NCBI GenBank assembly: GCA_012932865.1
Contig: SAXG01000013.1
Span: 744,001-808,000 of the forward strand
DNA length: 64,000 bases
Direction: 5' to 3'
DNA from: Amylostereum areolatum
Taxonomy: Eukaryota; Basidiomycota; Agaricomycetes; Russulales; Stereaceae
Made by a program: the position numbers and the translations under genes. Of this stretch, positions 33,523 through 60,280 are shown piece by piece. Every line of letters starts with the position of its first letter. Positions within the stretch are counted from its first letter, which is position 1. Under the pieces are notes generated by a model. It ran no database searches. It had not been told where the DNA came from and saw only the letters and a program-made list of their open reading frames with translations.

Positions 33523-33554
33523 TCAAATTTAGAGGCCTTGGCTGGGTGCCCCCA
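33523..33554 (+). repeat. Left inverted repeat of the DUF6589-helicase element
   Basis: 32 bp, exactly complementary to 60249-60280. Beyond it similarity drops quickly (AATAGGCAATTCC against GAAAGGAAATCC). A partial internal copy, CATCAAATTTA, occurs at 33623-33633. Confidence 0.9.
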
Positions 33555-33739
33555 AATAGGCAATTCCTTACATTCCATCTCACTTCGCTAGACTTTGCTG
33601 CCCTAGGCTGCCCTTGTCATGTCATCAAATTTATGTAGTCTAGTAATCATCATCTCGTCAGTGCTATAGATCTCGTAGATTGTTTGCAAGCGTGAACTGC
33701 TCTCAACTTATCCCACCTCTGCTTGTCCGTCTCTTCAAG

Positions 33740-34612
33740 ATGGCGACATTCATTGATGAAGTGGGTGTTTCTCCTCCCCGATGTTTTGAAGTGCTCACAT
33801 ATCACAGGGTCCGATGCTTCAGCTTCGGCACGGAGAGAGCGATGCAGCAAAAATCAAGCATATCTTGACATCGATCAAGGAGACGGGATGGACGTTTGGC
33901 AAGTTTCTCGTCAAGATGTTTTCGGTCAAGCCAGAGCAGGACACAACACACCATAAAATGCTTACCGCCTTTCTCTGTGGACAGCAAACTGATGATACCG
34001 CTGCCGATGCAGTTGTTGCCATGTACGATCATGACTTCAGCCACCCCGGTTCTCGGCATCCCGAGGTAGCTCACTACTTCTCCCCTACCCTCTTACCTAC
34101 CGAGATCGGCTACTGTGGCCCCGCACTATCAACATGGGCATATCAGCTTATGCTGGACGAAGCCGATGACGAGGCCGATGGTGCCTGCTCTTCAGCAAAG
34201 TCCCCCGAGCTTCGTTTGCGCGCGACGCGCACCCAGGTCGATGATACTCAAACAGTATCCGAGGGAATCGGGGCAGGATTGCCAGCTGCTAGCGATGGAT
34301 CTCATGGCCTTGACTTGGAGCCGGCGGAGGAGGGAGAGGAGCGGCCAGCATCGGCGGACTCCTCAATGGACGTTGACTCGGACTCGGCGGACAACCATAA
34401 TGGTGCGTAATCGTGTTGTCAGATAGTACGAACGAGGAAACTAACTTGATATCAGGTAATACTACTACATCGGTGGTCGAAACACCTCGTGGACGACGAC
34501 CGAAGAAGAGAGGAGCAACATCGCACGATGCGTTGGTATCGTGGAATCGCATCGAAGATTTTAGTATGGACGGGTTAGCTGGCTTCTACAGCCGGAGGAT
34601 GAAAATGGTTTG
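33740..34612 (+). pseudogene. DUF6589-like gene, 5' segment (before retrotransposon 1)
   Basis: N-terminal part of a protein of about 950 residues. A short first exon (MATFIDE, from 33740) joins across a small intron to PMLQLRHGESDAAKIKHILT, then ETGWTFGKFLVKMFSV and HHKMLTAFLCGQQTDDTAAD, the usual opening of DUF6589 proteins. Next come WAYQLMLDEADDEADG and an acidic linker. A second intron (about 34408-34454) leads to a basic patch (TPRGRRPKKRGATSHD) and DFSMDGLAGFYSRRMKM. The LTR of retrotransposon 1 begins at 34613, inside a codon. The frame is open up to that point and resumes at 44785. Confidence 0.8.
34608..34612. other. Target-site duplication GTTTG, left copy
   Basis: Five bases directly before the 5' LTR of copy 1, repeated at 44785-44789 directly after the 3' LTR. 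Confidence 0.95.
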
Positions 34613-35122
34613 TGTTACAACTCGTTCAAGGTACTTCATTTCTGTTGCCTTATTAGGAAGGACGTCGCTAAACGACGAGTTACGACTGTGCCCCAGCTCG
34701 TAACCGTCCCGACGACATAGCCACGACCGCGCCACAGCTCGTCGACATGTCGACAACACAGCTACGACTGTGCCACAGTCGCGTCCCCGTAGATACTTGA
34801 TACGATCGTTGCCTTATGTACATTTATTTACTCGACCTCCTTTCATATAAAAGGAGGCTCAACGAACGAGCTATTCCTCAGCTCGTTCTCTTTGTAAATA
34901 CAGGACTGTTCTAATAAGAACCTCCTCTTCTAAACGCTAAAGAGAATCCCAAGCCAACTAAGTTGATAAGCTCGCCTAAGTCTTCCGTGAAGACTTACTG
35001 CTTCGCTTATTGACCCTCACCTTCGTATAAACCGAGACGTCTGGATCACCTGATCCCACCTCTCACGCGTAAGAGTACTGTAGCCTGAGCCGCTTGTCAC
35101 GTGATAAGGACTGTCCTTAACA
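34613..35122 (+). repeat. 5' LTR of copy 1
   Basis: 510 bp, TG...CA termini. It contains a TATAAAA box at 34846-34852 lying between 8-bp inverted arms (CCTCCTTT and AAAGGAGG). Transcription is expected to start a few tens of bases downstream. Confidence 0.95.
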
Positions 35123-35126
35123 CTAG

Positions 35127-35933
35127 AACGAGCTCTCCTCTACACTAGCTCACCCTACAGTTTGGCGCAGAGCGTCAAACGAAACACCCACCACGGAGCC
35201 AGCGGAACAATCCGCTGAGAAAAGACCATCAGACTTCGAAGTCCCTTATCCCCAATCAGATTGTAGTCGAGAATTTCCCAACGGAAAAGAAAATCATCAC
35301 TGGACATTTGATCCCTATAATCTTATCTTTTATCACGACGGAGCCTTCACCGCAAAAGAAAGCAAAGGGACATACGCGTACCAGTGGAACCCACCCATAT
35401 ACAGATACAACCTTCCCCCAGCAGCAGAGTACTACAAAGATAGATCTAAAAGAGAAAAGGAAGACGGAACCTACGACAACTCACATTGGAAGCGCCCAGA
35501 TTATTCAAGACCTCATATCGGGCCCCTCTCATCAGAAGAACTCTGGAAACACCCGGACGCACAGAAAGTCGAAGAGAAACCTTACACCGGGAATATTAAG
35601 GACTACTGGGAATTTGATCCCGATACCGACACAGCCGATACGACAACCGCACCACAGAACCCTCAGACCGAACCCCAGCATCCTCAAGAAGTCGCAACAA
35701 CCGCACCGCATCCAGAAGAAACCGCGCCAGAACCTGAGAAAGCAGTATCAGACACCCGAACAAAGTCTGATTCCAGAGGAAGTCGAGAAAGCAGCCCATC
35801 AAGCGCAGCAGAAGCGGAAGGACATACAGAGAAATCAACAAGATCTCCATCAATCAAATCAGACGAAGATATTTTCGGAACCAGAAGAGGAAGACAAGGA
35901 AATCTATTCGGAAGACCCGAAAACATCACAACA
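35127..35933 (+). CDS. N-terminal Gag extension without an ATG (copy 1)
   Basis: An open frame continuous with gag from the TAG at 35124 to the first ATG at 35934. It encodes about 269 residues, for example NHHWTFDPYNLIFYHDGAFT, YAYQWNPPIYRYNLPPAAEY and RPDYSRPHIGPLSSEELWKH. Copy 2 has the same frame, with differences mostly at third codon positions and length changes in multiples of three, so it is almost certainly translated. No ATG occurs in any frame of the plus strand from the TATA box to 35934. Initiation must be at a non-AUG codon, or an upstream AUG is supplied by splicing that I cannot see. The sequence after the LTR (TTTGGCGCAGAGCG, about 35161) may be the primer-binding site. Confidence 0.65.
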
Positions 35934-37253
35934 ATGGGAGACGCTGCCACCTCGATACCCAACCCCGCCACTGCACCTAGCTATGTCCCCCTTGGAGAAA
36001 TTAATGTACCGTACAAGACGCCTCCATCTCCGACACCAGCCGATCCCACAAAACCGAGACCTGAGACTCGATTCGCCCTAGGATTCGGCGCGACCGAACC
36101 GATGAGATGGAGACCGCCACAATCACCATCACCACCGCCTTCCGACCGATCAATTGAAGACAAGAAAGGAAAAGAAGTTCAGGACTATGTTTTCGGAAGA
36201 GGAGCAACCGCAGATCTTCCAAAAGGATCGAAGTATCCACCAGGGAATTCCCCACCAGGAGGAACAGGAACAATCGGATCTAAACCCGAAGATAAGGACA
36301 AAGGGTTCAAACTAAACGCACTAGGAATATACGACGGAAGAGATCGAGCGAAAGCAGCAAAGTTCATCGAACAATGCGTACTTCGCTTCATAGCATTTCC
36401 CAACGCGTATAAGGCCAACATGCGAAAGATAACCTTTGTACTCTCGCATCTTACCGATGGACCTGCCCTTCACTGGGCATCCCTTTTAATAAGCAAAATA
36501 GATAAGATACGAGATCGCGGCCTAGATCCAGAAGCATACCTTCCATGGACGGTGTTCCGCGACCACTTCTTAGAGACCTTTGGAGAAATAGACCCCGGAA
36601 GGGACGCTAGATTCAACATACAGCGCCTGGAACAAGGCACTATGGACACCAAAGATTACATCACGATCTTCAGAGACTATGCCATGGAAGCTGGTTACGA
36701 TCATAAAGCATTGATCGACCAATTCAAGAGAGGACTGCGCAACGATGTCGTAGTCGAGATCCTCAAGAGAGATCACATCTCGAACGACATCGAAGAATGG
36801 TATGAACTCGCATTACGCATCGATAATAACTGGCGAGAAGCCCAAGCATTCCAACGACATTATACGAGACCAATGAACCCGACGAGCGATCTCACCCTCC
36901 TATACAAGAAACCACAGACGTACGTTCCATTCCGAAGAGGAAACAGAAATAAAGGGAATGCTACCACCGCCAGAGCCGCTCAGACCGGAAACAATAACCG
37001 AAACTTCAGACGCCTTACCCCGCAAGAACGTACCGAACTTCAGAAATCAGGATCATGCTTCTATTGCCGGAAGCCAGGACACATCTCCAGGAACTGCCCA
37101 GAGAAACGTACCCAAACGACGATCAATGCACGAACGGCGAATCTAACGGAAGAAGAATCCCCGATTGATCAAATCACCAAGCTCGTGAACAAGATGGACA
37201 GTGAAACGTTCGCGCGCACTGCCAACATGTTCAAAGACAATCAGGGTTTTTGA
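35934..37253 (+). CDS. gag: Gag polyprotein, copy 1
   Basis: 439 residues from the first ATG. A Pro-rich region is followed by the retrotransposon gag capsid region (KAAKFIEQCVLRFIAFPNAY, HLTDGPALHWASLLISKID, FGEIDPGRDARFNIQRLEQG). A CCHC zinc knuckle comes next (CFYCRKPGHISRNCPEKR). It forms the virus-like particle and packages RNA. The TGA at 37251-37253 follows directly after a GGGTTTT heptamer, and pol continues in the -1 frame. Confidence 0.93.
   Translation: MGDAATSIPNPATAPSYVPLGEINVPYKTPPSPTPADPTKPRPETRFALGFGATEPMRWRPPQSPSPPPSDRSIEDKKGKEVQDYVFGRGATADLPKGSKYPPGNSPPGGTGTIGSKPEDKDKGFKLNALGIYDGRDRAKAAKFIEQCVLRFIAFPNAYKANMRKITFVLSHLTDGPALHWASLLISKIDKIRDRGLDPEAYLPWTVFRDHFLETFGEIDPGRDARFNIQRLEQGTMDTKDYITIFRDYAMEAGYDHKALIDQFKRGLRNDVVVEILKRDHISNDIEEWYELALRIDNNWREAQAFQRHYTRPMNPTSDLTLLYKKPQTYVPFRRGNRNKGNATTARAAQTGNNNRNFRRLTPQERTELQKSGSCFYCRKPGHISRNCPEKRTQTTINARTANLTEEESPIDQITKLVNKMDSETFARTANMFKDNQGF
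37244..37250 (+). promoter_or_regulatory. Candidate -1 ribosomal frameshift site G-GGT-TTT (copy 1)
   Basis: A heptamer of the X-XXY-YYZ type in the gag frame, immediately before the gag stop. A slip by one base back enters pol at 37250 (TTG AAC CGT). The identical heptamer at the identical place exists in copy 2 (49230-49236). Confidence 0.8.
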
Positions 37254-40200
37254 ACCGTCCTTCAACCGCGGCTGTTGAAAGGACACAGACAATGAACTTT
37301 TCAAATCAATCTCCTGTGCAGGAAACAGGGGATGACATAAATAGAACAGTGTATATAAGGTCATACCAAGATGGAGCGGCGCACGCCCCATCAATTCATA
37401 TACCTGTTATGTTTCATGGAAAGTTCCGTAAAGCCGCAGCAAAAGCACTGCTAGATAGCGGAGCCAGTAGCACCCTGATCCATCCAGACTTCGTGCGAAA
37501 ACACAAGATGAATCTGATCCAACTTAAGAAACCGATACCGATATACAATGTTGATGGATCGCGAAACACTTTGGGAGAGATCAAACAAAAGGTGTACCTT
37601 CCGATGACAATGGAAGGAATCAACGGAGAAATTCACCGCGAAAACCTAGGACTATTTGTCACAGCCCTAGGAGGAGATGAAGTAATCTTAGGAACCCCTT
37701 GGCTCAAAAAACACAATCCTAGCATCGATTGGAGAAAGAGACAGATTACACTACAGACATGTCCAGGTACGTGCTCCACTACGAGTAAAACAATGACCGT
37801 CCAAGGAAAGGACGAACCCTTCCTACCATCGTTCGAAGAACAGAAGGCAAACCATCACGCAATGGTAGAGGAACAAGAAGATTCCGAAATCGATTCTGAT
37901 CTCATCGAGATCAAGACGATCAGAACGTTCTACGGGAAAACTAACATAGAAGCGATACCAGTCGCAGAAGAAACGAATGAAACTAGTGCCTGGATAACCG
38001 TGAGAGCAACTAAAGCACAAGAACTCGCAGAAAGAGCAGCCATGGGAGAAAAGAAGAAGACACTCGATGAGATGATTCCATCTAGCTACAAACAGTATCA
38101 AAAGGTATTCGAAAAGAAAGCGTCGGAACGCTTCCCAATCAGTAGACCTTGGGATCATGCGATAGACCTGACCGAAGGATGGAAACCTCGGAATTGCAAA
38201 GTGTATCCGATGACGGTACCAGAACGAAAAGAATTAGATACGTTCATAGACGAACATCTACGAAAAGGATACATCCGAGAATCAAAATCAGAGATATCGT
38301 CGCCCTTCTTTTTCATCAAGAAGAAAGATGGATCTCTTCGACCAGTACAGGACTATCGCTATCTCAACTCCATCACGGTAAAAAACGAATACCCGATCCC
38401 GCTCATCTCGGATCTCATCGACAAACTCAAAGATGCTAAGATCTTCTCAAAGCTCGATCTCCGATGGGGATACAACAATGTTCGAATCAAAGAAGGAGAT
38501 CAATGGAAAGCCGCGTTCAAGACAAACAGAGGCCTGTTCGAACCAATGGTGATGTTCTTCGGACTAACCAACTCGCCCGCAACGTTCCAAGCAATGATGA
38601 ACGCACTATTCAAAGGATTAATAGACACGGGAAAGGTAGTGGTATACATGGACGACATATTAATATTCACAGAAACACTCGACGAACATAGAAAACTGAT
38701 GAGAGAAACCCTTCAAATTCTGGAACGGAACGATCTGTTCCTGAAACCAGAAAAGTGCTTCTTCGAACAATCATCAATCGAGTACCTAGGCGTGATAATC
38801 ACACATAACAAGGTACAGATGGACCCAATCAAGGTTCAAGGACTATCGGAATGGCCTACACCGAAGAAGGTAAAAGAAGTCCAATCGTTCCTCGGATTTG
38901 GAAACTTCTATCGACATTTCATCAAGGATTATTCTAAGATCGCGAGACCACTATTCCAACTCACGAAGAAGGACCATGACTGGAACTGGACAACCGAGTG
39001 TGAAAACACCTTCAACAGGCTGAAACACGAATTCACATCATCCCCAGTCTTAATCATGCCTGACGAGAACAAACCATTCCGCATAGAAAGCGATGCCTCT
39101 GACTTCGCGTACGGAGCTATCCTATCACAACCGGACGAAACCGAAAGATGGCATCCGGTCGCGTACCTGTCCAAATCATTGTCACCGGCGGAACAGAATT
39201 ACGAAATATACGACAAAGAACTCTTGGGAGTGGTAAAAGCCCTAGAGCACTGGCGACACTATCTAGAAGGAGCAAACCACAAGATTGAAATCTGGACAGA
39301 CCATAAGAATCTAGAATATTTTACAACAGCACAGAAACTTAATCGACGACAAGCGCGATGGAGCCTGTACCTATCCCGCTTCAACTACACCCTGGTGCAC
39401 AAACCAGGAAGTACAAACAAAGCGGACGGACTTTCTAGAAGATCAGATCATAAAGAAGACATTCCAGATAACGACGAACGAATCCTGCTCCATCCTTCGA
39501 TATTCAAGGCAAGAGCCACCGGAAGGGGAACTGTTGAAGCAATCGGAGATAAAGAGCTTCTCAGAGAACTAAGGAACTTCTCACACCTGGATGATGAAAT
39601 TTGGACAGCGTTGGATACGATCAAAAAATCAGGACCACGTACCCTTGCAAAAGGAATCGAAGATTGGAACTTCGAGAACGATCTGATCATCAGGAAAGGA
39701 AAGATCTACGTACCACAGAATCTCGAACTGCGACGTATGATCCTGAAATCGCATCATGATCTCCAAACGATTGGACATCCAGGAGAGATGAAAACCTTAG
39801 AACTGGTACAGAGAAACTTTTGGTGGCCGAAGATGATTTCCTTCGTAAAAAGCTATGTCCAAGGATGTCCCGTATGCCAGTCAACAAAGAATGTCACGCA
39901 TCCGGCAAAACATCCACTACAACCTACGGAAATACCAGAACGACCATGGGAAACAATCACATCAGATTTCATTACAGATCTTCCGATCTCCAATGGATTC
40001 GATTCGATCAACGTAGTCGTCGACAGGTTCACCAAAACCGCAGTATTCACACCGTGCCTAAAGACGATCAACGCAGAAGAGACAGCTGATCTTCTGATCG
40101 ACAATGTTTACAGACGATTTGGACTATGGAAAAGAATGATATCGGACAGAGGCCCTCAATTTGCATCCAAAGTATTCCAATCCATCTGCGAAAGTCTCGG

Positions 40201-41140
40201 AGTTATCTCGTCGCTCAGCACAGCGTATCATCCCCAAACGGACGGCGAAACAGAAAGAGTGAATCAAGAGTTAGAACAATATCTTCGAGCATTCTGCAAC
40301 GGAGATCAAACGAATTGGGCAAAACTTCTACCAAAAGCGGAATTCGCACACAATATAAGACAACATTCAGCTACGAAAGCTTCCCCATTTGAACTCCTAC
40401 ACGGGTATCAACCGGTTTTCAACCCGGCAATACCAACCGATCCGCGAATACCGACAGCCGAAGAAAGAATAAAGAACTTTAAGGACGCATGGGACAACGC
40501 AGAAGCAAGTCTAGAAATAGCTGCCAAATTAATGAAGATGCAGCATGATCAAACGTTCACACTGCGAGATCAACTCAAACAGGGTGACCAAGTATGGTTG
40601 GATGGAAAGAATCTTAACACGGTATACCCGAAAACTAAACTAGCACCAAAGCGATTTGGCCCATTCAAAATTGAAAAAGTAATAGGACCAGTAACCTATC
40701 GCTTAGAACTACCGGCGAAGTGGAAAATACATCCGGTATTTCACGCGGGACTGTTAATTCCGTTCAAAGAAACAGAACAATACGGCGAAGCTTACGAAAA
40801 ACCGCCTCCGGAACTAGTAAATGATGAAGAACTCTATGAACTAGAAACAATAATAGCCTCGAAACTAGACAAACGATATTCCGAACCATTACATTATTTC
40901 GTAAAATGGAAAGGCTACCCAGACTCCGGTAACACATGGGAACCAGCATCTAATCTCAAAGGATCAAAAGATGCGATCACAGAGTTCCACCGGAATAACC
41001 CGAAGGCACCGAGGTTGCCACCAAAGCCAATCAAAGAGACCAACGAAGAATCTACTGATCTCGACGAGATCACTGTAACGCAACAAGAGCGAAGGCCAAC
41101 ACAACGAAAGAAACGCAAGACAAAAGTAAAACACTGGTGA
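37250..41140 (+). CDS. pol: Pol polyprotein with chromodomain, copy 1
   Basis: About 1,296 residues in the -1 frame to gag. Aspartic protease at KALLDSGASSTLIHPDFV. Reverse transcriptase from YRYLNSITVKNEYPIPLISD through FFGLTNSPATFQAMMN to VVVYMDDILIFTETL (YMDD active site). RNase H at FRIESDASDFAYGAILSQPD. Integrase HHCC finger (HHDLQTIGHPGEMKTLELVQ ... CPVCQ). Integrase core with SDFITDLP, SDRGPQFAS and the later Glu (DDE). C-terminal chromodomain SEPLHYFVKWKGYPDSGNTW, which in this clade steers insertion to particular chromatin. The domain order marks the chromovirus branch of Ty3/gypsy. It is open throughout. Confidence 0.96.
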   Translation: MNRPSTAAVERTQTMNFSNQSPVQETGDDINRTVYIRSYQDGAAHAPSIHIPVMFHGKFRKAAAKALLDSGASSTLIHPDFVRKHKMNLIQLKKPIPIYNVDGSRNTLGEIKQKVYLPMTMEGINGEIHRENLGLFVTALGGDEVILGTPWLKKHNPSIDWRKRQITLQTCPGTCSTTSKTMTVQGKDEPFLPSFEEQKANHHAMVEEQEDSEIDSDLIEIKTIRTFYGKTNIEAIPVAEETNETSAWITVRATKAQELAERAAMGEKKKTLDEMIPSSYKQYQKVFEKKASERFPISRPWDHAIDLTEGWKPRNCKVYPMTVPERKELDTFIDEHLRKGYIRESKSEISSPFFFIKKKDGSLRPVQDYRYLNSITVKNEYPIPLISDLIDKLKDAKIFSKLDLRWGYNNVRIKEGDQWKAAFKTNRGLFEPMVMFFGLTNSPATFQAMMNALFKGLIDTGKVVVYMDDILIFTETLDEHRKLMRETLQILERNDLFLKPEKCFFEQSSIEYLGVIITHNKVQMDPIKVQGLSEWPTPKKVKEVQSFLGFGNFYRHFIKDYSKIARPLFQLTKKDHDWNWTTECENTFNRLKHEFTSSPVLIMPDENKPFRIESDASDFAYGAILSQPDETERWHPVAYLSKSLSPAEQNYEIYDKELLGVVKALEHWRHYLEGANHKIEIWTDHKNLEYFTTAQKLNRRQARWSLYLSRFNYTLVHKPGSTNKADGLSRRSDHKEDIPDNDERILLHPSIFKARATGRGTVEAIGDKELLRELRNFSHLDDEIWTALDTIKKSGPRTLAKGIEDWNFENDLIIRKGKIYVPQNLELRRMILKSHHDLQTIGHPGEMKTLELVQRNFWWPKMISFVKSYVQGCPVCQSTKNVTHPAKHPLQPTEIPERPWETITSDFITDLPISNGFDSINVVVDRFTKTAVFTPCLKTINAEETADLLIDNVYRRFGLWKRMISDRGPQFASKVFQSICESLGVISSLSTAYHPQTDGETERVNQELEQYLRAFCNGDQTNWAKLLPKAEFAHNIRQHSATKASPFELLHGYQPVFNPAIPTDPRIPTAEERIKNFKDAWDNAEASLEIAAKLMKMQHDQTFTLRDQLKQGDQVWLDGKNLNTVYPKTKLAPKRFGPFKIEKVIGPVTYRLELPAKWKIHPVFHAGLLIPFKETEQYGEAYEKPPPELVNDEELYELETIIASKLDKRYSEPLHYFVKWKGYPDSGNTWEPASNLKGSKDAITEFHRNNPKAPRLPPKPIKETNEESTDLDEITVTQQERRPTQRKKRKTKVKHW

Positions 41141-41212
41141 AACTCATTCAGGCGAATGCACTGCCAAAGAGAGGGGATAAAAACCCCTTGGGTTCGACGA
41201 GACAGAGCACCA

Positions 41213-42974
41213 ATGTCCACCACCCCAAACGCAGCCAACACCTCTTCCACCAATCCAATCGTCACTCCCAGCAATGTCGACCGCCTCCGCCTCGTTTGTC
41301 ACAAAGTACACCACACTCAACAGGAACGCGCCCTCTGCGAAGACTGCTTCATCGCTCGATCCGCAACTATCCTCGCAATTAAGACGGCATCTCCTCCGTC
41401 TAGGTCAGGACCAGACGGAAGAACAAGGGGTAAGCCGCTTAGAAGCACACAGAAGAACCCCAACTAAAGCGCCTGGATTCCTCACAGGTGCTAATGCAAT
41501 CCCCGTTGCCCGGAGCAACGGAAGTCCCAACGCCCGATTCCCCGATGCTAGAAAGTCAGATAGCCCACATGATAGCCGGAGTAGCTCTCAAGCAGGCCAG
41601 GGAACGGATCAGCGATCTCAGGCAGGAGTCGGCCGACGTCCAGAGCATCTTAGGGAATCACATCAAGATGCTCGACGAGGAGTTTCTGCAGCTAGACTCG
41701 AGGTACCTAACGCTCTCGACCGAGATGGAAGAGAGGGAGGTCAAACTCCTTCGACGACTCCGGAAGCTAGCGCAGCAGCTATACTCAACGTCGCAGAGCT
41801 CCGGAGATTCCTTACTGAAGTCGGACTCAGAGTTAACTGGCTTAACTGGGAAAGACACACCTTCCGTGCCGCCTACGAAGGAGAAATCCTCCGAAGACGA
41901 ATGGAAACTACTGGAGTTCCCCATATGTCTTCGAAAGAAGGCCCCGACATTGACCTTATCTTCCATGGACATCACATCTCCCCGGGCTACACTATTCGAC
42001 CCGATCCCATCACGACCACCCTCACCAGATCCCCGTACCCTCCTAACGCCCCTCCGCGGCCCGTCACCGCTCATACTCCACCAAGATCCATACCCATTCC
42101 CGGCTTCAACAACGTTAACCTCGTCCAGCCTCCCATCGTTGGAAACGACATACCCGGAAACTACATCGGACAGCCCCGTACTCCCCCGGACCCCAGACAG
42201 CCGACCAGAAGATTCCCAACGGAAAATCCTCGACGAGTACCTTGGGCACCTTCCTCACTGCCAGCGGTGCCTAGACCGCCAACACCTTTCCCAACTTCTA
42301 TTGACGACGCTCCCATGCCTTGGAACGGAAACCCCCCTGATTATCCCTCCTTCCTACGCCCACACCCCGACCACACTAGTGATCCCATCGCCCAAGATCC
42401 CCGAGTCACCCCACAGCGACGTAAACATGAATCTGTCGACTCCGACAGAAGATCACTCAAGCGGATCAGAGACGTCGACTTCCCCGATAAGTCGGGCGAT
42501 GAGGAACTGCGACAAGATCCAGGAGATAATCCAACGGATGATGGAAATCCAAGCTCGCGGGAGACAGGGGTGCAAGTCAACGGAATTGGACAGTTCGGCG
42601 GAGGAAGAGGACGATCCGGCGAACGACCAAACAAAGGAAGTAGCCGAGAATCCCTCGGACCCATGGAGCGGCGAGCCGACTACGTGGACGCAGGAACAGT
42701 GGGACGCGATTCCTGTGAAGCCGCGGAAACGCTGCTGGAAATGCGGCGAGCGAGGCCATCTCCGCCGAGACTGTCCCCGTCACAAGAACGCTCCCCCTCA
42801 CTTCCCCCGATCACGGTCATGCTACCCTCTCCAACCACGGACTCCTCTTCCTCGCCCGAGCCATCCGGATACCAGCTACGGTCCAGGAACACTGATGTCC
42901 CACCCCCACCTCCGACGTACCGACGCTACCGCCCGCGCCCACAGGCAGCTTCTGGGCTTCCTCACGCGACGTGA
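41213..42974 (+). CDS. Accessory ORF A, copy 1 (spliced, overlaps ORF B)
   Basis: 567 residues from 41213-41429 joined to 41488-42974 across a 58-bp GT-AG intron. The N-terminus has a Cys/His pair region (RLRLVCHKVHHTQQERALCE then DCFIARSA) that resembles a small zinc-binding motif. A central block is highly conserved between copies (LNVAELRRFLTEVGLRVNW, then AAYEGEILRRRMETTGVPHM and GPDIDLIFHGHHISPGY). The rest is Pro-rich and basic. The ATG has C at -3 (weak context). I recognise no known family. ORF B starts 61 nt downstream in the +1 frame and overlaps for about 1.6 kb. Confidence 0.6.
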
Positions 42975-43170
42975 AAGCCTGACTCACGAAGCCGCCCAAC
43001 ACGCCACCGAACAGTGGCTGTACTGGGAAGACGCGGCACTCCGCACTCAGCGGGAACCTCCCTCGCGATTCAACCACTCTTGGCGCGTCGATGATCTCTT
43101 CTGGAAAGAAGAGGACTGGGACTTGCAAGAAGTGGAAGAGTCGAAGGTTCACTGGCCGGAGACCTGGTAA
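41274..43170 (+). CDS. Accessory ORF B, copy 1 (coiled coil plus CCHC zinc knuckle)
   Basis: 612 residues from 41274-41429 joined to 41488-43170 using the same intron as ORF A but in another frame. An N-terminal coiled coil (IAHMIAGVALKQARERISDL, MLDEEFLQLDSRYLTLSTEM) is followed by a disordered Ser/Pro-rich middle. A CCHC knuckle follows (CWKCGERGHLRRDCPRH), then a conserved C-terminus (LLGFLTRRESLTHEAAQHAT, FNHSWRVDDLFWKEEDWDL). The plan resembles a second Gag-like nucleic-acid-binding protein. Its ATG has G at -3, better than that of ORF A, so leaky scanning could give both proteins from one RNA. Confidence 0.65.
41430..41487 (+). other. 58-bp intron in the accessory region of copy 1, absent from copy 2
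   Basis: It begins GTAAGC and ends CTCACAG with an AACTAAAG branch-like motif. Copy 2 reads straight through at exactly this point (AGAACAGGG then GGTGCCAATGC), which equals the spliced form of copy 1. Confidence 0.85.
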
Positions 43171-43585
43171 GCGCACGGACGATCTTTCATCCATCACACG
43201 CACTCGGACCATTTTTCTCATCATCAGTTACGTCTCCATCTCGTTCCCATCATCCCGCATTTACGACTTCTCCTTACGATACTCCTCGGACTGATCACGG
43301 ACTGTGCCCTCACTCGTACGCATATTTTCCTCGGACTTCTCTACTATACCGGTTCCTATCGCTATGAGGAAGGCGAAACACTTAGCATCTTTCCCAGCGA
43401 CGCACTGGATGCATCGCTTACTTACGACTCATGTCTGATTATGTACGAGATTCCCGCTTACGATTGACGGCAATGATTACATCATTGCTCCTCCACATCG
43501 TAAGCATAAAAGGAAAGTCACAAAGACGATAACATCCTCAGACATCGTCTAAACAAACTCACTCGCACCGCCCAAACCAACAAAA

Positions 43586-43969: not shown

Positions 43970-44041
43970 AATAGAATTCTATCGTTAGGGTCCGGGCAAG
44001 GATATAAAGAGTGAACATCAGAAAACGACAAACCCAGAAGC

Positions 44042-52200: not shown

Positions 52201-53123
52201 TCAGTACAGCGTATCATCCCCAAACGGATGGCGAAACAGAAAGAGTGAATCAAGAATTAGAACAATATCTTCGAGCATTCTGCAACGGAGATCAAACGAA
52301 TTGGGCAAAACTTCTACCAAAAGCAGAATTTGCACACAATGTAAGACAACATTCAGCTACGAAAACCTCCCCATTTGAACTCCTACATGGGTATCAACCG
52401 GTTTTTAACCCGACAATACCGACCGATCCGCGAATACCGACGGCCGAAGAAAGAATAAAGAACTTTAAGGACGCATGGAACAACGCAGAAGCAAGTCTGG
52501 AAATAGCTGCCAAACTGATGAAAATGCAGCACGATCAAACACTCACACTGCGAGATCAACTCAAACAGGGTGACCAAGTGTGGTTAGACGGAAAAAATCT
52601 TAACACGGTATACCCGAAAACTAAACTAGCACCAAAGCGATTCGGCCCATTCAAAATTGAAAAAGTAATAGGACCAGTAACCTATCGCTTAGAACTACCG
52701 GCAAAGTGGAAGATACATCCGGTATTTCACGCGGCACTATTAATTCCGTTCAAAGAAACAGAACAATATGGAGAAGCTTACGAAAAACCGCCTCCGGAAC
52801 TAGTAAACGATGAAGAACTCTACGAACTGGAAATAATAATAGCCTCGAAACTAGACAAACGATATTCCGAACCGTTACATTACTTCGTAAAATGGAAAGG
52901 ATACCCCGACTCCGGTAACACATGGGAACCAGCATCTAATCTCGAAGGATCAAAAGATGCGATCGCAGAGTTCCATCGTAATAACCCCAAGGCACCGAAG
53001 TTACCACCACAGCCAATCAAAGATACCAACACAGAAGCCACTGATCGCGACGAAACCGACGCAACGCAGCGAGAACGAAGACCAACAAGACGAAAGAAAC
53101 GCAAGACGAAAGTAAGACATTAG
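49236..53123 (+). CDS. pol: Pol polyprotein with chromodomain, copy 2
   Basis: About 1,295 residues with the same protease, RT (YMDD), RNase H, HHCC/DDE integrase and chromodomain (HYFVKWKGYPDSGNTWEPAS) as copy 1. Most differences from copy 1 are silent or lie in the linker after the protease. No stop or shift. Confidence 0.96.
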   Translation: MNRPSTAAVERTQTMNFSNRSPVQETGDDVNRTVYIRSYQDGATHAPSIHIPVTFHGKFRKAAAKALLDSGASSTLIHPDFVRKHKMNLIQLKKPIPIYNVDGSRNTLGEIKQKVYLPMTMEGINGEIHRENLGLFVTALGGDEVILGTPWLKKHNPHIDWRKRQITLQTCPGTCLTTSKTMIVQGKDEHSLQSFEEQEINHHATIEEQEDPESNSDIADIRIVRTFHGKTDVETMPIAKEANEPGIWITARATKAQELAERAAIGEKKKTLDEMIPSSYKQYQKVFEKKASERFPISRPWDHAIDLTEGWKPRNCKVYPMTVPERKELDTFIDEHLRKGYIRESKSEISSPFFFIKKKDGSLRPVQDYRYLNSITVKNEYPIPLISDLVDKLKGAKIFSKLDLRWGYNNVRIKEGDQWKAAFKTNRGLFEPMVMFFGLTNSPATFQAMMNTLFKELIDTGKVVVYMDDILIFTETLDEHRKLMKEALQLLERNDLFLKPEKCFFEQPSIEYLGVIITHNKVQMDPVKVQGLAEWPTPRKVKEVQSFLGFGNFYRRFIKDYSKIARPLFQLTKKDHEWNWTAECERTFERLKREFTSSPILIMPDENKPFRIESDASDFAYGAILSQPDEIERWHPVAYLSKSLSPVEQNYEIYDKELLGVVKALEHWRHYLEGANHKVEIWTDHKNLEYFTTAQKLNRRQARWSLYLSRFDYTLVHKPGSTNKADGLSRRPDHKEDIPDNGDRILLHPSVFRARATGRGAVEGVGDKELLKELRNFSHLDDEVWTALETIKRSGPRTLAKGIEDWNFENDLIIRKGKIYVPQNLELRRRILKSHHDLEIIGHPGEMKTLELVQRNFWWPKMISFVKGYVQGCPVCQSTKNVTHPAKHPLQPTEIPERPWETITSDFITDLPISNGFDSINVVVDRFTKTAVFTPCLKTINAEETADLLIDNVYRRFGLWKRMISDRGPQFASKVFQSICESLGVISSLSTAYHPQTDGETERVNQELEQYLRAFCNGDQTNWAKLLPKAEFAHNVRQHSATKTSPFELLHGYQPVFNPTIPTDPRIPTAEERIKNFKDAWNNAEASLEIAAKLMKMQHDQTLTLRDQLKQGDQVWLDGKNLNTVYPKTKLAPKRFGPFKIEKVIGPVTYRLELPAKWKIHPVFHAALLIPFKETEQYGEAYEKPPPELVNDEELYELEIIIASKLDKRYSEPLHYFVKWKGYPDSGNTWEPASNLEGSKDAIAEFHRNNPKAPKLPPQPIKDTNTEATDRDETDATQRERRPTRRKKRKTKVRH

Positions 53124-53205
53124 TGAGACTCAACGACATTCAGGCGAATGCACTGCCAACAAGGGGGGGATAAAAACCCTACAGGTTCAACAAGACAGAT
53201 CACCA

Positions 53206-54993
53206 ATGTCCACCACCCCGAACGCAACCAACATCTCCTCTACCAATCAGACCGTCTCAACCAACAATGTCGAACGCATCCGCCTCGTCTGCAACAAAGC
53301 ACACCACACTCAACAGGAACGCACTCTCTGTGGAGACTGCTTCATCGCTCGATCGGCAGCAATCTTCGCAATTAAGTCAGTACCTCCTCCGTCTAGGTCA
53401 GGACCAAACGGAAGAACAGGGGGTGCCAATGCAATTCCCGTGGTCCGAAGCGACGAAGGTCCCAACACCCGATTCCCCGATACTCGAGAATCAAATAGCC
53501 CACATGATAGCCGGAGTAGCGATCGAGCAGGCCAGGCAGCGGATCGACGACCTCAGGAGGGAGTCGGCCGACGTCCAGGGCATCCTGGAAGACCACAACA
53601 AGATGCTCGACGAAGAACTCCACCAGCTGGACTTGAGGTACCTGACGCTCTCGACCGAAATGGAGGAACGAGAGGTCAAGCTCCTTCGACGATTCAGGAA
53701 GCTAGCGCAGCGGCTATACTCAACGTCGCAGAACTCCGAAAGTTCCTCACTGAAGTCGGACTCCGAGTCAACTGGCTCAACTGGGAAAGACATACCTTCC
53801 GTGCCGCCTACGAAGGAGAAATCCTCCGAAGACGAATGGAAACTACCGGAGTTCCCCATATGTCGCCACGCGAAGGCCCCGACATCGACCTCATCTTCCA
53901 TGGACATCACATCTCCCCGGGCTATACTGTTCGACCCGATCCCATCGCATCTGCCCTCACCAGACCCCCGTTCCTTCCTAACGCCCCTCCACGACCCGTC
54001 ACCGCCCCCACGCCACCAGGATCCTTACCCATCCCCGGCATCACCCAGATTAACCCCGTCCAGCCTCCCGTCGCTAGAAACGGATTACCCGAAGAGCAGT
54101 TCAGACAGCCCCTGCCAAGAGAGCTATCGGGACAGTCCCTGGTCCTTCCAGAGCCCGGACAACCGACCGGACGACCGGCCAGCAATCCGCGACCGGTACC
54201 TAGGACACCTCCTCGGCTGTCCGCCGTGCCTAGACCGCCAACTCCATTCCCACTATCTGCTAGCGACGCTCCCATGCCGTGGCACGGAAACCCTGCCCCC
54301 TATCCCTCATTCCTACGTCCGCACCCCGACCACACTCGAGATCCCGTCACCCAGGATCCCCGAGTCACCGCACAGCGACGTAAACATGATTCTGTCGACC
54401 CCGACGGAAGACCGTTCAAGCGGATCAGAGAGTTCAGACTCCCCGATGCATCGAGTGAGGAAGAACTTCAAGGAACTCAAGAAGATAGTCGATCGGATGA
54501 TGGAAGACCGCGCTCGCCGGAGACAGGAACTCAACCTAACGGACGAGTCGGACAGTTCAGCGGACGAATCGGACAGCTCGGCGGACAAATCGGAGAAGGA
54601 CGACAGGACGAAGGAAGTAGCCGAGAATCCCTCGGACCCATGGAGCGACGAACCAACCACGTGGACGCAAGAGAAGTGGGACGCGATTCCCTCGAAGCCG
54701 CGGAAACGCTGCTGGAAATGCGGCAAGCGAGGCCATCTCCGCCGAGATTGCCCCCGTCGCAAGGGCGCTCCCCCTCACTTCCCCCGATCTCGGCCCTGCG
54801 ATCCCCTCCGACCACAGACTCCTCTTCCTCGCCCTCGCCCGGACCGTCCGGATATCAGTTACGGTCCAGGAACACTGATGTCCCACCCCCACCTCCGACG
54901 TACCGACGCTACCGCCCGTGCCCACAGGCAGCTTCTGGGATTCCTCACGCGACGCGAGAGCCTGACGCACGAAGCCGCCCAACACGCCACTGA
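53206..54993 (+). CDS. Accessory ORF A, copy 2 (uninterrupted)
   Basis: 595 residues, one exon. It matches the spliced form of copy 1 ORF A, with the conserved block LNVAELRKFLTEVGLRVNW and GPDIDLIFHGHHISPGY. ATG with C at -3. ORF B begins 61 nt downstream, exactly as in copy 1. Confidence 0.6.
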   Translation: MSTTPNATNISSTNQTVSTNNVERIRLVCNKAHHTQQERTLCGDCFIARSAAIFAIKSVPPPSRSGPNGRTGGANAIPVVRSDEGPNTRFPDTRESNSPHDSRSSDRAGQAADRRPQEGVGRRPGHPGRPQQDARRRTPPAGLEVPDALDRNGGTRGQAPSTIQEASAAAILNVAELRKFLTEVGLRVNWLNWERHTFRAAYEGEILRRRMETTGVPHMSPREGPDIDLIFHGHHISPGYTVRPDPIASALTRPPFLPNAPPRPVTAPTPPGSLPIPGITQINPVQPPVARNGLPEEQFRQPLPRELSGQSLVLPEPGQPTGRPASNPRPVPRTPPRLSAVPRPPTPFPLSASDAPMPWHGNPAPYPSFLRPHPDHTRDPVTQDPRVTAQRRKHDSVDPDGRPFKRIREFRLPDASSEEELQGTQEDSRSDDGRPRSPETGTQPNGRVGQFSGRIGQLGGQIGEGRQDEGSSRESLGPMERRTNHVDAREVGRDSLEAAETLLEMRQARPSPPRLPPSQGRSPSLPPISALRSPPTTDSSSSPSPGPSGYQLRSRNTDVPPPPPTYRRYRPCPQAASGIPHATREPDARSRPTRH

Positions 54994-55153
54994 GCAGTGG
55001 CTGTATTGGGAGGACGCAATGCTCCGCACTCAACAAGAACCCCCCTCACGCTTCAATCACTCATGGCGCGTCGACGATCTCTTCTGGAAGGAAGCAGATT
55101 GGGACTTGCAGGAAGCGGAGGAGTCGAAGGATCACTGGCTGGAACCCTGGTAA
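53267..55153 (+). CDS. Accessory ORF B, copy 2 (uninterrupted)
   Basis: 628 residues, one exon, +1 frame to ORF A, overlapping it for about 1.73 kb. Coiled coil (IAHMIAGVAIEQARQRIDDL), CCHC knuckle (CWKCGKRGHLRRDCPRR) and the conserved C-terminus (LLGFLTRRESLTHEAAQHAT) are kept. ATG with A at -3. Confidence 0.65.
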   Translation: MSNASASSATKHTTLNRNALSVETASSLDRQQSSQLSQYLLRLGQDQTEEQGVPMQFPWSEATKVPTPDSPILENQIAHMIAGVAIEQARQRIDDLRRESADVQGILEDHNKMLDEELHQLDLRYLTLSTEMEEREVKLLRRFRKLAQRLYSTSQNSESSSLKSDSESTGSTGKDIPSVPPTKEKSSEDEWKLPEFPICRHAKAPTSTSSSMDITSPRAILFDPIPSHLPSPDPRSFLTPLHDPSPPPRHQDPYPSPASPRLTPSSLPSLETDYPKSSSDSPCQESYRDSPWSFQSPDNRPDDRPAIRDRYLGHLLGCPPCLDRQLHSHYLLATLPCRGTETLPPIPHSYVRTPTTLEIPSPRIPESPHSDVNMILSTPTEDRSSGSESSDSPMHRVRKNFKELKKIVDRMMEDRARRRQELNLTDESDSSADESDSSADKSEKDDRTKEVAENPSDPWSDEPTTWTQEKWDAIPSKPRKRCWKCGKRGHLRRDCPRRKGAPPHFPRSRPCDPLRPQTPLPRPRPDRPDISYGPGTLMSHPHLRRTDATARAHRQLLGFLTRRESLTHEAAQHATEQWLYWEDAMLRTQQEPPSRFNHSWRVDDLFWKEADWDLQEAEESKDHWLEPW

Positions 55154-55536
55154 GCGCGCGGACAGACTTCACCCATCATACGCACTCGGACTATTTCTCC
55201 CATCATCCCGCCTTTACAATTTCTCCTTACGATACTCCTCGGACTGATCACGGACTGCGCCCTCATCCGCACGCATATTTTCCTCGGACTTCTCTACTAT
55301 ACCGGTTCCTATCGCTACGAGGAAGGCGAAACGCTTGATATTCTCCCTGTAACGCGCTGGACGCGTCGCCTGCTTACGACTCAGTTTTGATTATGTACGA
55401 ATCATCGCTTACGATTGCTGGCAACGATTACATCATTGCCCCTCCGCATCGTAAGGATAAAGAGGAAAGCGACAAAGACCACAACATCCTCAGACATCGT
55501 CTAAACAAACCCACTCGCACCACCCACACCAACCAA

Positions 55537-55920
55537 ATGTCTTCCACCCTCACCTCCTCTTCGCGCAACCTCTCCACCACCGACTGCACCCCTCCTAACA
55601 CCCCTCCTCCTTCGCCCGTCCTCTCGCGCACTCCCACGCCCGACCCACAAGACGAAGAACTCCTTCGTCATCTCAAACGAGTCACGGAACTCTTAAGCCG
55701 TCCGGACGTTGCTCGCGCCATGAAGAGGCCGAGGAGCCTAGACGAAGAAGCCATGCAGGAGTCAAAAGGAAGATGCGGCATCAAGGGACTCTTCCGAAAA
55801 CGCGGGCCTCGGTTCAAGAGCCCGGATCACGCGACGACGGCGAGGATAGGACATCGGTTAGGGGCTACTACGATAGACGAGGAGGACGTAAAAGTAGTAG
55901 AGGCGTTACTCAAGCGGTAG
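55537..55920 (+). CDS. Accessory ORF C, copy 2
   Basis: 127 residues, colinear with ORF C of copy 1 (DEELLRHLKRVTELLSRPDV, GIKGLFRKRGPRFKSPDH). Confidence 0.6.
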   Translation: MSSTLTSSSRNLSTTDCTPPNTPPPSPVLSRTPTPDPQDEELLRHLKRVTELLSRPDVARAMKRPRSLDEEAMQESKGRCGIKGLFRKRGPRFKSPDHATTARIGHRLGATTIDEEDVKVVEALLKR

Positions 55921-55991
55921 AATGGAATTCTATCGCTTGATTCCGGATAAGGATAAAAGGAGTGAACATCAAAACATGAGGACTCAGAAGC

Positions 55992-56315
55992 ATGATGCAA
56001 CCCACTCAGTCGCCCGATCCCGTAATTTTCAATACACCTACTCCACGCTGGCTCCTTGTCGTCATCAGCATCATCGTAGGACTTACGATCCTCACCTTCC
56101 TCGCATCAACAATATTCCTCCTCCTATGGCGAAGAACGAGCGATCGACAGCATGTTCAAGAGATCCCTCTAGAACCGCTTCAATTCAGGAATCTACGAGA
56201 CGTAGATTCTAGAGAGGGGGATAGTGTTACAACTTGTCCAAGGTACTTCATTTTCCATTACCTTATTAGGAAGGATGTCGCTAAACGACGGATTACGACT
56301 GTGCCCAGTTCGTAA
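55992..56315 (+). CDS. Accessory ORF D, copy 2 (single membrane span)
   Basis: 107 residues. The hydrophobic helix (WLLVVISIIVGLTILTFLAS) is conserved with copy 1. It stops 91 bases inside the 3' LTR. Confidence 0.55.
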   Translation: MMQPTQSPDPVIFNTPTPRWLLVVISIIVGLTILTFLASTIFLLLWRRTSDRQHVQEIPLEPLQFRNLRDVDSREGDSVTTCPRYFIFHYLIRKDVAKRRITTVPSS

Positions 56316-56763
56316 CCGTCTCAACGACGCGACGACAACAGTGCCACAGATCGTCACCGTCCCGACGACAGTGCCACAGATCGTCACCGTCTCAACGGCA
56401 CAGCCGCGACGGTGCCACAGTCTCATCCCCGTAGATACTTGATACGACCGTCGCTCAATGTACATATATTTACTCGACCTCCTTTCTTATAAAAGGAGGC
56501 TCATCGAACGAGCCATTCCTCAGCTCGTTCTCTTTGTAAATACAGGACTGTTCTAACTAAAGAACCTCCTCTTAAGTATACTAAAGAGAGCCCAAAGTAA
56601 CTAAGTCGAAAGCTCGCCTAAGTCTTCCGCGAAGACTTACTGCCTAGCTTACCGACCTCAACCTTCGTATAAACGAGACGTCTGGATCACCTGATCCCAC
56701 TTCTCATCTACACAAATACTGTAGCCTGAGCCACTTGTCACGTGATAAGGACCGTCCTTAACA
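56225..56763 (+). repeat. 3' LTR of copy 2
   Basis: 539 bp, preceded by the same purine tract (AGAGAGGGGGA, from 56211) as copy 1. Confidence 0.95.
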
Positions 56764-57269
56764 TCGTCAACCTGAAAGGCCAGGCTGGTCACTTCCATGA
56801 ACTTGACCTCATGCAGGAACACTTCAACTTCTGGCTTGAAGAGCTTGCCCAGCACAAGGGCCAGGAGTTTGATAGTGAATTCTACCGCAATGTTATCTCC
56901 ATGCACATCCACCGCTTTTTAGTGTTAATTCGGGAACTGGAGGAGAACGTCAAGCTCGCGCAACGGACCACGACGCACGGCATGCCTCCCAACCACAACG
57001 AGATCCGCGAGGTCATACGAATTGCCCACGCGAATGATCTTCATCGTCGACGCGAAGGCCGAAGCTTTGGTTTCCTGGCCCAGGACGATTACTCAGAGGG
57101 TTATAAGATCATGGGGAAGAAGAACAAGCTAGGTGAATACATTGCGAAGACGATGGAGGAGTGGGACAACAAACACGTCCAAATCCCCGTGCCCGAGGGA
57201 TATGAAGATATGTCTACTTATATGCATGTACCTGTATCTGTAGACGAAGATGGAGAGATGGCAATGTAA
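56764..57269 (+). pseudogene. DUF6589-like gene, 3' segment (after retrotransposon 2)
   Basis: It resumes at the target duplication TCGTC with VNLKGQAGHFHELDLMQEHF, then NFWLEELAQHKGQEFDSEFY, the usual DUF6589 C-terminal region (LDLMQEHFN...WLEELAQHKG). It ends MHVPVSVDEDGEMAM with stop at 57269. There is no stop or shift inside. Apart from the two inserts the whole gene appears intact, so loss of function would be recent and due only to the insertions (unless the retrotransposons were spliced out, which I cannot judge). Confidence 0.8.
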
Positions 57270-57279
57270 TGTACGTGTA

Positions 57280-59855
57280 TCACGATCGCGGTTGGCTGGC
57301 GGGGGACGGAGGGTTGTATGGATGGTAACGACGCGGAGACATGACGGAGCCGCGCTGTCGGTACAAAGATCGGGGTGTCGTCGGACTGGAGGGACGAGCT
57401 CGACGCGGGGTGGCAAAGCATTGGCGGGGTGTACGCGATGATCGCGACGGCGTAGCGGGTAGGTTTTCATGTGACGCTCTGGAGGGGGTAGAGGGCGGAT
57501 TGTCGTGAGAGTAGACTTGGGCGATACTCTGCACCAACGGGCTGAGAGGACGAGGTAAGTCTGACCGAGCACATACCGAACAAGAGTGAATACTTACTTT
57601 GCATTATTTTCTGCGTTGTCGTGCCGTTTGAGTGGCTCGCGAGGCGTTGCCACCTTCCTGGGACGTTTATTCGTCGCCGTCGGCGCTGTCGAAATGCCAA
57701 CGGTGAGTGGCACCCAACGCGAAAGTGCCAGTGAGGACTCGAGGTACGCACCTTTGTTGCTCCCCCCCGCCTGCATTTTCTTCGCTCGAGCCTTCCTAGC
57801 CCGCTCCTGTTTCGCCTCGTCCCGTATCTCGTCAAATCGCCGATGAATCCCCTTCACCACATCGAACAGCGCGTTCCCACAGTCCTCGAGGAACTCCCAA
57901 TCGAACAGTGCCGCTGCCAAAGCCTCACGATCGCGAATTGCAGCGAGGTTGCTGGTGAGTGCACGCCGTTGCTTGTCGGGGATAAGGGAGAAAGGGGGAT
58001 CCGAGATGAAGTCGTAGTCGGGATATGCGGCGGCACTCGATGTGCCCAGCTCGAGCCAGGTTTTGATGCAGAACTTGTCCAGGTGAGTTTCGGCAAGCTG
58101 GAGCATTTTGACGGTCAACTTCGAGGTAGGTACGACGTCGATGTCGTCATTCTCTGCGTCGTGGTCTGCATCTTCGTGGAAGGCCATCCGGGCATCAACG
58201 ACAGCCTGAGGGTTTTCTGGAGGTGGTTCTTCGCTCGGTTCGCTGGGAGGAGGGGGTGGGAAGGGTTGCACGAAGCGAATGGGGGGACGACGTGGATCTT
58301 CGAGAGGGAGCATTGCGATGCAGCTGGAGTAGAGCAGGACACGTCCTGCATCCAAGCAGGAAGCGAGCGAGACGGAAGATGACGCGTGACGCCCAAATAC
58401 ACGGTTCAATTCGGCGGTGATGCACAGGTGCTTGACGTGACACTCAACCAACCGCCGCAATGTAAGGTCGTCCATCCGTTTTGATTTGGAGGAACCTGTA
58501 TCTTCTGTCCGTCGATCGCGTGGAGGCGGTACGTATTCCGCCGCTGTTACCCGGCTAGTTTCCTCTCCCTTTGCGACTGCCTTATTGCTTTCAGTGCGGA
58601 TCTCTTGAACGAAGCTGCGCTCGATGTAGAGAATGGCCACAGCAAAGCGCGTGCGATCACGCCCAGCGCGGCCAAAATACTGGACGATCTCCTCGGGGGT
58701 GTCAGGAAGGCCCATTACGGCCACATAATCCACCCCTCGGATGTCAACACCCATCCCGCACTTGATCGTGGCCACGACCGTGAAGCAATCGGGATCCGTT
58801 TGGAAGGCTTGCAACGTCTCTTCGTTCTCGTTCTGCCTTGCGTCGGGATCATTGGTAAGTCCGTTGTAGATTCGGATATTCTGTTGACGGTTTGCGTGAA
58901 GTGGCCGTATTCTTTGCAGGTACGATGCGATGTTCCAGCACGTCGTGTAATCTTTGCAGTAGATGAGGGTTTTTCCTACTCCTGTCGCTGCCCAAGTCAG
59001 CTCCGGAAACGCGGACCCAGCAATCCCACCGTGTAGAGTGTAGAACATCGTTCGCACGTTGGGCTGCTCGATGGACCTTCGAAGGGTGCGGTATTGACCC
59101 GGACGAAACTCCATCACGTCCGTTAAAAGTGCGTGCTCCAGTTCGGGTGACAGAGTTGCTGTCATCATCAGAATAGGAACCCCGGGGAGGCGGGCGCGGA
59201 GCTTTGCGATGGCCGCATACGCCTCACGGAAAGCTTTGCCCCACTCTATGGTAACGTGTACCTCGTCAACGGCATATGTGACGATGCTCTCGTTGAACGT
59301 TTTGTTGCGCAGAATACGGTCGAACTCCAGCATTCTGAGTCGTTCTGGCGAGGCAATGACGACCTCCCACTCGCAACGGCGCACTTCTTCCAGCAAGTCC
59401 CGCTTTTCCGCTTTTCGGACAGCGGCCATGTGGTCCTTGTCCAACGACACGGCTTTGATGCCTAGTTTTGTCATCTCGGCAACCTATGTGCGAAGTCTGT
59501 GAGTCCGTCATCATTATATCTACAAGATATCACTTACCTGACTATGCGCGAGGTCTGTGAGCGGCGTGACTGCTAGAACAACGGGGTTCTCGACGAGTGA
59601 CAAGCCAAGGCGGTTGAGCTCGGGGTGCTCACGAAGATATCTGCGAAGCATTATTTGGAGGTACATGGCAGCTGTTTTTCCCTCCCCGCATCCCGCTACA
59701 AGAAGCTGATGATGCTGGTCAAGGAGGTTGGAGGTAACCTCAACCTGCCAGTCATGAGGACCGTTCGGCCATTGCGGGATAGCCTCATCCAAGATGAACT
59801 TGAGATGGAGGCGTCCTTCTGTTGTTGACCATTGGTCCTCTTTCTGCGAGGTCAT
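57280..59855 (-). CDS. RecQ-like superfamily 2 DNA helicase
   Basis: ATP-dependent DNA helicase. The start at 59855 gives MTSQKEDQWSTTEGRLHLKF. Motif I is GCGEGKT, an unusual Walker A. An intron near 59540-59485 joins LAHSQ to VAEMTKLGIKAVSL. Further motifs: ASPERLRML (Ib), DEVH (II), MMTATLS (III), IYCKDYTTCWNIASYL (IV), TIKCGMGVDIRGVDYVAVMG (V) and VQYFGRAGRD (VI), the RecQ-type order. A long acidic/Pro-rich tail follows. An intron near 57750-57690 and another (57597-57542) lead to a last exon 57541-57280 that encodes a Ser/Pro/Arg-rich C-terminus (SIAQVYSHDNPPSTPSRASH). No RQC or HRDC domain is evident. The stop is 10 bp from that of the DUF6589 gene. Its place inside the inverted repeats suggests a role in moving the element. 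Confidence 0.9.
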
Positions 59856-60248
59856 GGAGGGCGAAAGAGAGCCATGGAGCAGACAGGAGACCTGTTGACA
59901 AGGAGGAAGACAAATTGTATATCTGAAACATTTCGATCACTTTATCTACTTCCAGATCTATCTTTTCAATAGTGGGTGAAAGCGTGGATTGAGAGTGTTT
60001 AAGATCTTCTCATGGTGCCATGAAAGCAGAAGAGAGTGCACAAACGAAGGGAACAACACCGCAACAGCAGATCATCAACGACTTCGTGTTCGTCGACGCA
60101 TTCATGGTGCGCGACGCTATCACGTGACTATATGACGAGACTGTTTTCGCTAATCAACTCTGATGACACCGAAGGGCACACGAGAGCTACGTAGGGTTTC
60201 CTTTTCCGTGCGCGGGAACTTTCGAGGGCGTGCTGCGGATTTCCTTTC
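59856..60248. other. Subterminal region of the DUF6589-helicase element
   Basis: About 390 bp between the helicase start and the right inverted repeat. It probably holds the helicase promoter and any transposase-binding sites. No repeats long enough to report. Confidence 0.5.
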
Positions 60249-60280
60249 TGGGGGCACCCAGCCAAGGCCTCTAAATTTGA
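60249..60280 (-). repeat. Right inverted repeat of the DUF6589-helicase element
   Basis: 32 bp, the perfect inverted copy of the left end. It lies about 400 bp upstream of the helicase start. Confidence 0.9.

Follow-up and report, generated by a model that had tools for sequence, protein, structure and literature searches.

We analysed a window of 64,000 nucleotides from the basidiomycete Amylostereum areolatum (contig SAXG01000013.1) and found that it carries a mobile element with TAG...CTA ends, a 9-bp target-site duplication and two genes, one for a protein of the DUF6589 family and the other for a RecQ-like helicase. In our assessment, it is highly probable that the unit is a DNA transposon with two genes, in which DUF6589 would act as the transposase and which most likely falls within the AcademH lineage. 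The original prediction had proposed that the two genes travel together as one mobile unit, and this is supported by 9-bp duplications, numerous copies, uninterrupted sites and the recurrent pairing of both genes.

Ends of the element and target-site duplication

The window contains two 32-bp inverted repeats with perfect complementarity, and a simple estimate puts the chance of such a pair in 64 kb at about 1e-10. Both repeats lie where the original prediction had placed them, but their role was corrected, as they are subterminal. The genome (57.13 Mb in 182 contigs, with the window lying within contig C34) was searched with both ends of the element. The DUF6589-side end produced 21 matches and the helicase-side end 36, many of the latter corresponding to the inverted repeat common to the other end. 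When copies with different flanks were placed side by side, the likeness extended beyond the 32-bp repeats and ended sharply at TAG. Therefore, the element spans positions 33468-60289 and its true ends are TAG...CTA. Immediately outside, the same 9 bp, GGCAAGGAT, were found on the left and on the right, constituting an exact target-site duplication. The earlier statement that no target duplication was visible thus did not hold; the duplication had been missed because it was sought at the wrong place, next to the subterminal repeats. Subtracting two long terminal repeat (LTR) retrotransposons and their duplications leaves an element of 6,443 bp, in line with the unit of about 6.4 kb anticipated before.

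Copies of the element and evidence of mobility

A script recognised both ends in 17 elements, namely the window element, its relative L027 and 15 short gene-less copies. Outside this count are L009, L010 and L017, in which one end was unrecognised, and the helicase-side matches at C66:857974, C56:951776, C162:70906 and C129:84286. An exact 9-bp duplication was present at 15 of the 17 elements. L015 and L019 have the same flanks and duplication, as do L021 and L023; these are copies of larger segments, and 13 independent sites remained after merging them. The end search, which had been suggested as a check of the original prediction, yielded many copies with different flanks and revealed the duplication.

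Twelve short copies, of 701-1,158 bp, were compared. Seven were 97-100% alike and three others 99-100%, with 84-86% between the groups, and L025 and L026 were more distant (52-67%). The 121-bp left end matched that of the window element at 92-94% in ten of the twelve and at 88-89% in L025 and L026, and the right end shared with it comprised 93-94 bp in nine, 71 bp in L015 and 46-47 bp in L025 and L026. Beyond the two ends, the twelve copies matched nothing of the window element. The middle part of short copies L012-L026, about 500 bp in most, had no match to the window element or L027.

In order to look for sites lacking the insert, the flanks joined with one copy of the duplication were searched in the genome for nine of the 13 sites (all except L021, L022, L025 and L026). 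Four of them (L013, L016, L018 and L020) had an insert-free counterpart that aligned at 93-99% over the whole query across the junction, indicating that related sequence contains these four sites in insert-free form. In this own-genome search, the window element, L027, L012, L014 and L015 had no complete counterpart lacking the insert: L014 gave only a partial match (84%) crossing the junction, the halves of L012 matched separately elsewhere, and the window element, L027 and L015 recovered their own halves only. L027 bears the genes, measures 6,284 bp, is free of LTR inserts and has the duplication GGTAAAGGT. It interrupts a host frame (L027 492-986 and 7259-7738) that carries an FAD_binding_8 domain before the insert; the frame behind it has no Pfam match and, by our own reading, continues in the manner of ferric reductases.

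Pairing of DUF6589 and helicase genes across the genome

The DUF6589 profile (Pfam PF20231) had 112 matches in the genome, forming 58 clusters, and the window helicase had 45, forming 44; these counts and those of the pairs below are minimum values, since scoring was confined to the best candidates. A pair was defined as a helicase cluster within 10 kb of a DUF6589 cluster. This applied to 37 of the 58 DUF6589 clusters, compared to about 1.6% expected for random places, and to 36 of the 44 helicase clusters. Hence, DUF6589 is regularly accompanied by the RecQ-like helicase. Among the 37 pairs, 30 were convergent, seven divergent and none on the same strand, which implies at least one flip of the gene order. 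The divergent pairs include L030, C170:57357-61636, C128:834530-838809 and four other loci. A Pfam scan of the longer frames, ten of L027-L029 and five of L030-L031, detected solely DUF6589 and helicase domains.

Pairs of other subfamilies have comparable ends. L028, whose helicase is 40% identical to that of the window, has TAG...CTA ends and the 9-bp duplication GTCGGTGGT. The L031 subfamily ends in TAGACTCG...CGAGTCTA, which are longer and symmetric, and showed 9-bp duplications in the four copies examined out of seven near-identical loci; L030 and L031 as first cut were short of their ends, and those of L031 were obtained from extra flanks. The L029 subfamily ends in TAGTCT...AGACTA. In the divergent subfamily (C170 and C128), the helicase-side end also begins with TAG, and the end on the other side was not found.

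Predicted fold of DUF6589 and nature of the helicase

The DUF6589 gene of the window copy, on the + strand, is in pieces that match PF20231 with E-values of 4.4e-53, 5e-17 and 8.9e-22, and the piece at 44918-45967 shares 95% identity with a protein of Amylostereum chailletii. AlphaFold models representing two distant branches of DUF6589 had their best alignments with DDE transposases (Hermes, P element, IS256 and RAG1), which stood above all unrelated rows listed. Both models display an RNase H-like core with three acidic residues, the first D in strand 1, the second D directly after a strand and the E within a helix. A set of D, D, H and E is kept in 143-144 of 145 DUF6589 proteins. Judged from conservation and order, the acidic D, D, E triad represents a putative catalytic set. 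A tyrosine recombinase chain was not among the rows listed for either model, although a missing row excludes no family. Altogether, the models and the conserved residues make it very probable that DUF6589 is a DDE transposase with an RNase H fold, and likely the recombinase of the element, for which it had already been named as a candidate. Pfam assigns no function to this same family, for which a role as DDE transposase is proposed here.

At least 465 proteins passed one search for DUF6589 relatives, and the named relatives among the 120 of 465 listed all belong to genera that we take to be Agaricomycetes. Viral contigs scanned with the DUF6589 profile contained no relative, and the name DUF6589 was not found in the literature searched.

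The helicase gene, on the - strand, belongs to the RecQ family (TIGR00614, E 3.8e-28, under the curated cut-off of the model) and is matched by Bloom helicase chains (E 1.3e-17). Its coding sequence is unbroken in the parts that were read, and Walker A, DEVH and GRAGRD are all there. As predicted, the two genes are convergent with stops 10 bp apart, given the DUF6589 stop at 57267-57269 and a likely helicase stop at 57280-57282, which depends on a probable last intron.

Comparison with known transposons

Academ elements have inverted repeats, and the nuclease of AcademX is XPG. Comparisons with published elements refer to the accessible parts of the cited papers. AcademH makes duplications of 9 or 10 bp and AcademX of 3 or 4 bp, tied to helicase and nuclease (PMC10045372), and AcademH, an Academ lineage with a helicase, has been reported in Basidiomycota, Ascomycota and Mucoromycota (PMC10799480). 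Our element resembles AcademH in its helicase gene, here of the RecQ family, in its 9-bp duplication (15 of the 17 elements including that of the window, L028 and all four L031-type copies), in its basidiomycete host and in its inverted repeats, represented by the TAG...CTA ends and the 32-bp subterminal repeat. It differs from AcademX in duplicating 9 bp rather than 3-4 bp. XPG was not among the Pfam matches of five window frames and 15 frames of relatives, a scan that applied to the longer frames. Set against the published description, helicase and duplication length most likely file the element under AcademH, an assignment that would in addition presuppose a common descent of DUF6589 and the DDD/E transposases of Academ.

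Several observations weigh against this explanation. First, no helicase cluster lay within 10 kb in the case of 21 of the 58 DUF6589 clusters; these include C119, which has a convergent helicase by the RecQ profile, and the first piece of the window gene itself, since the LTR inserts split this gene and the window counts as two DUF6589 clusters, one of them unpaired. Second, L011 lacks a duplication (2 of 9 positions agree) and that of L024 is degenerate. Third, the L029 subfamily (8-bp duplication noted for L029, L032-L035 and L038-L039) duplicates 8 bp in four copies, L029 and three of four further ones, in contrast to the 9-10 bp published for AcademH; in L029 itself, a ninth duplicated base can be read by shifting one end, and for the fourth further copy (L036/L037) the right end was not found. 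The ends are therefore alike across subfamilies while the stagger differs. Fourth, with Foldseek alone neither model had a match at E 0.001 or better: the P element was the best row for one model (8.6e-3) and stood behind an unrelated transporter in the other (0.64), and the DDE rows had root-mean-square deviations (rmsd) of about 4 to 9 Å. Fifth, a PDB sequence search with the DUF6589 profile returned one row, not credible (E 0.41). Finally, no Academ transposase sequence for comparison was found in the databases used or in the accessible parts of the literature searched, including PMC8290104, PMC12210899, PMC12730594 and PMC10294476.

Some of these points would suit a mobile element with DUF6589 as DDE transposase that lies outside Academ, in another superfamily, and acquired its helicase and 9-bp duplication in parallel. 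We consider this unlikely. The 8-bp duplications of one subfamily speak for it, as does the fact that no Academ sequence was aligned. So does the host range, since the named relatives in the 120 of 465 listed are presumably all Agaricomycetes, whereas animals, too, are named as hosts of AcademH, according to the title of what is reportedly the AcademH paper (Kojima 2020, Mobile DNA 11:15). In contrast, helicase, 9-bp duplication, inverted repeats and fungal host fit AcademH as far as the available parts of its published descriptions go. With small but real odds, DUF6589 elements at large could form a separate DDE superfamily that abounds in mushroom-forming fungi, with a RecQ-type helicase as fixed partner (convergent or divergent) and a stagger of 8 or 9 bp depending on the subfamily, similar to AcademH in working and not in descent.

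It is considerably less probable that DUF6589 is an accessory protein and that an unseen third gene, or the transposase of another family, performs the cutting. The Foldseek E-values are weak and several N-terminal frames of the elements have no Pfam match, both of which this explanation would accommodate. However, the 15 scanned frames of L027-L031 (the longer ones) held only DUF6589 and helicase domains, the fold and residues of DUF6589 are of DDE type, and we know of no helicase that cuts and joins DNA.

The hAT transposase Hermes (PDB 4d1q) was the best structural match, sharing the RNase H core and the helical insertion that Hermes has between the second D and the E. Nonetheless, identity was 8% and the rmsd 6.2 Å, and hAT elements make 8-bp duplications, whereas the window family makes 9-bp ones and 8 bp occur only in the L029 subfamily. 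Kolobok elements, in turn, duplicate TTAA. KolobokH has a RecQ helicase located 3' of the transposase domain and occurs only in fungi, a red-algal Kolobok (Kolobok-1_CCri) carries its RecQ helicase on the complementary strand, and a C/DxxH motif between the second D and the E is named as a signature of Kolobok and hAT (PMC9587614). A Kolobok transposon (KolobokH or kin) would thus explain the RecQ helicase, the fungal host and, as in the red-algal element, the opposite strand. This is nevertheless very improbable, since the helicase is here a separate gene on the opposite strand, no duplication is TTAA and C/DxxH is missing, which also separates DUF6589 from hAT: three positions ahead of H334, protein P0004 has E (ELWH) and the P0060 branch has G (GLFH). 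Together, the helicase and 9-10-bp duplications of AcademH (PMC10045372, PMC10799480) and the RecQ helicases of Kolobok (PMC9587614), as far as these sources are accessible, leave the earlier claim that no described transposon class has this gene pair unsupported. Lastly, chance trapping of ordinary host genes between an unrelated repeat, which the gene-less occurrence of the same ends in 15 of the 17 elements might suggest, is refuted by the duplications located exactly at the ends of the gene-bearing window element, L027, L028, L029 and its copies, and L031 and its copies, and by a DUF6589-helicase pairing far beyond chance.

For an AcademH-type element with DUF6589 as transposase, the following mechanism can be proposed. 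DUF6589 would bind two terminal stretches that both contain the 32-bp subterminal repeat, one of about 120 bp and the other of about 93 bp. It would cut beside TAG...CTA and attach the ends to target DNA at positions staggered by 9 bp, and repair of this stagger would leave the 9-bp duplication. For the RecQ-like helicase, the probable task is to unwind the ends or the target, or to promote strand displacement once joining has occurred, and gene-less copies with just the two ends may be mobilised in trans. DUF6589, a large family filed without function, would thereby acquire a likely role, and many genes annotated as hypothetical proteins in mushroom genomes would become transposon genes. With its recent short copies, the element could also be a clear system in which to study what a DDE transposon gains from retaining a RecQ helicase.

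Organization of the window copy

Both LTR retrotransposons noticed in the original prediction are real, and a separate 5-bp duplication flanks each of them (Table 1). The LTRs of each pair differ by one base, and the insertions are thus recent. With two inserts in its DUF6589 gene, the window copy is unable to make a whole transposase as it stands; gene-bearing copies free of these inserts are present elsewhere in the genome. Both LTR elements contain an extra gene-sized frame with a CCHC zinc knuckle 3' of pol (41443-43167 and 53174-55150), overlapped by second long frames at 41181-42971, without Pfam match, and 53116-54993. To our knowledge, it is uncommon for Ty3-type elements of about 10.2 kb to carry an additional gene.

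Table 1. Features of the transposon in the window (positions in the 64,000-nucleotide stretch).
Feature	Position	Strand	Remarks
Target-site duplication, left copy	33459..33467		GGCAAGGAT; identical 9 bp on both sides
Whole transposon	33468..60289	+	26,822 bp; termini TAGTCTCC...AGCCTA; from outward alignment of other copies
Left terminal region common with short derivatives	33468..33588	+	121 bp
Subterminal inverted repeat, left arm	33523..33554	+	32 bp, perfect
Upstream open frame, probably N-terminal part of DUF6589 gene	33790..34410	+	No Pfam match; by-eye likeness to N-terminal part of relatives
Ty3-type LTR retrotransposon in DUF6589 gene	34613..44784	+	LTRs 34613-35122 / 44275-44784, 1 mismatch; 5-bp duplication GTTTG
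DUF6589 piece	44918..45967	+	First D (VVFDN), second D (HGDG), WHTKW
DUF6589 piece	45895..46368	+	Profile 210-299
Second, related LTR retrotransposon in DUF6589 gene	46567..56763	+	LTRs 46567-47105 / 56225-56763, 1 mismatch; 5-bp duplication TCGTC
DUF6589 piece	56730..57269	+	LDLMQEHFN (candidate catalytic E); stop TAA 57267-57269
Probable last intron and short last exon of helicase	57280..57593	-	Stop 57280-57282; putative gene model
RecQ-like helicase, main exon	57594..59483	-	DEVH, GMGVD, GRAGRD
RecQ-like helicase, exon 1	59538..59855	-	Walker A (AGCGEGKT), splice donor GTAAGT; putative gene model
Right terminal region common with short derivatives	60197..60289	-	93-94 bp in most
Subterminal inverted repeat, right arm	60249..60280	-	32 bp, perfect
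Target-site duplication, right copy	60290..60298		GGCAAGGAT; identical 9 bp on both sides

Outside the transposon, eight copies in a 129-bp register (126 once) at 30451-31650 encode WD40 repeats, matched by Pfam PF00400 in eight stretches. The likeness of about 90% among some of these units points to recent reshuffling.

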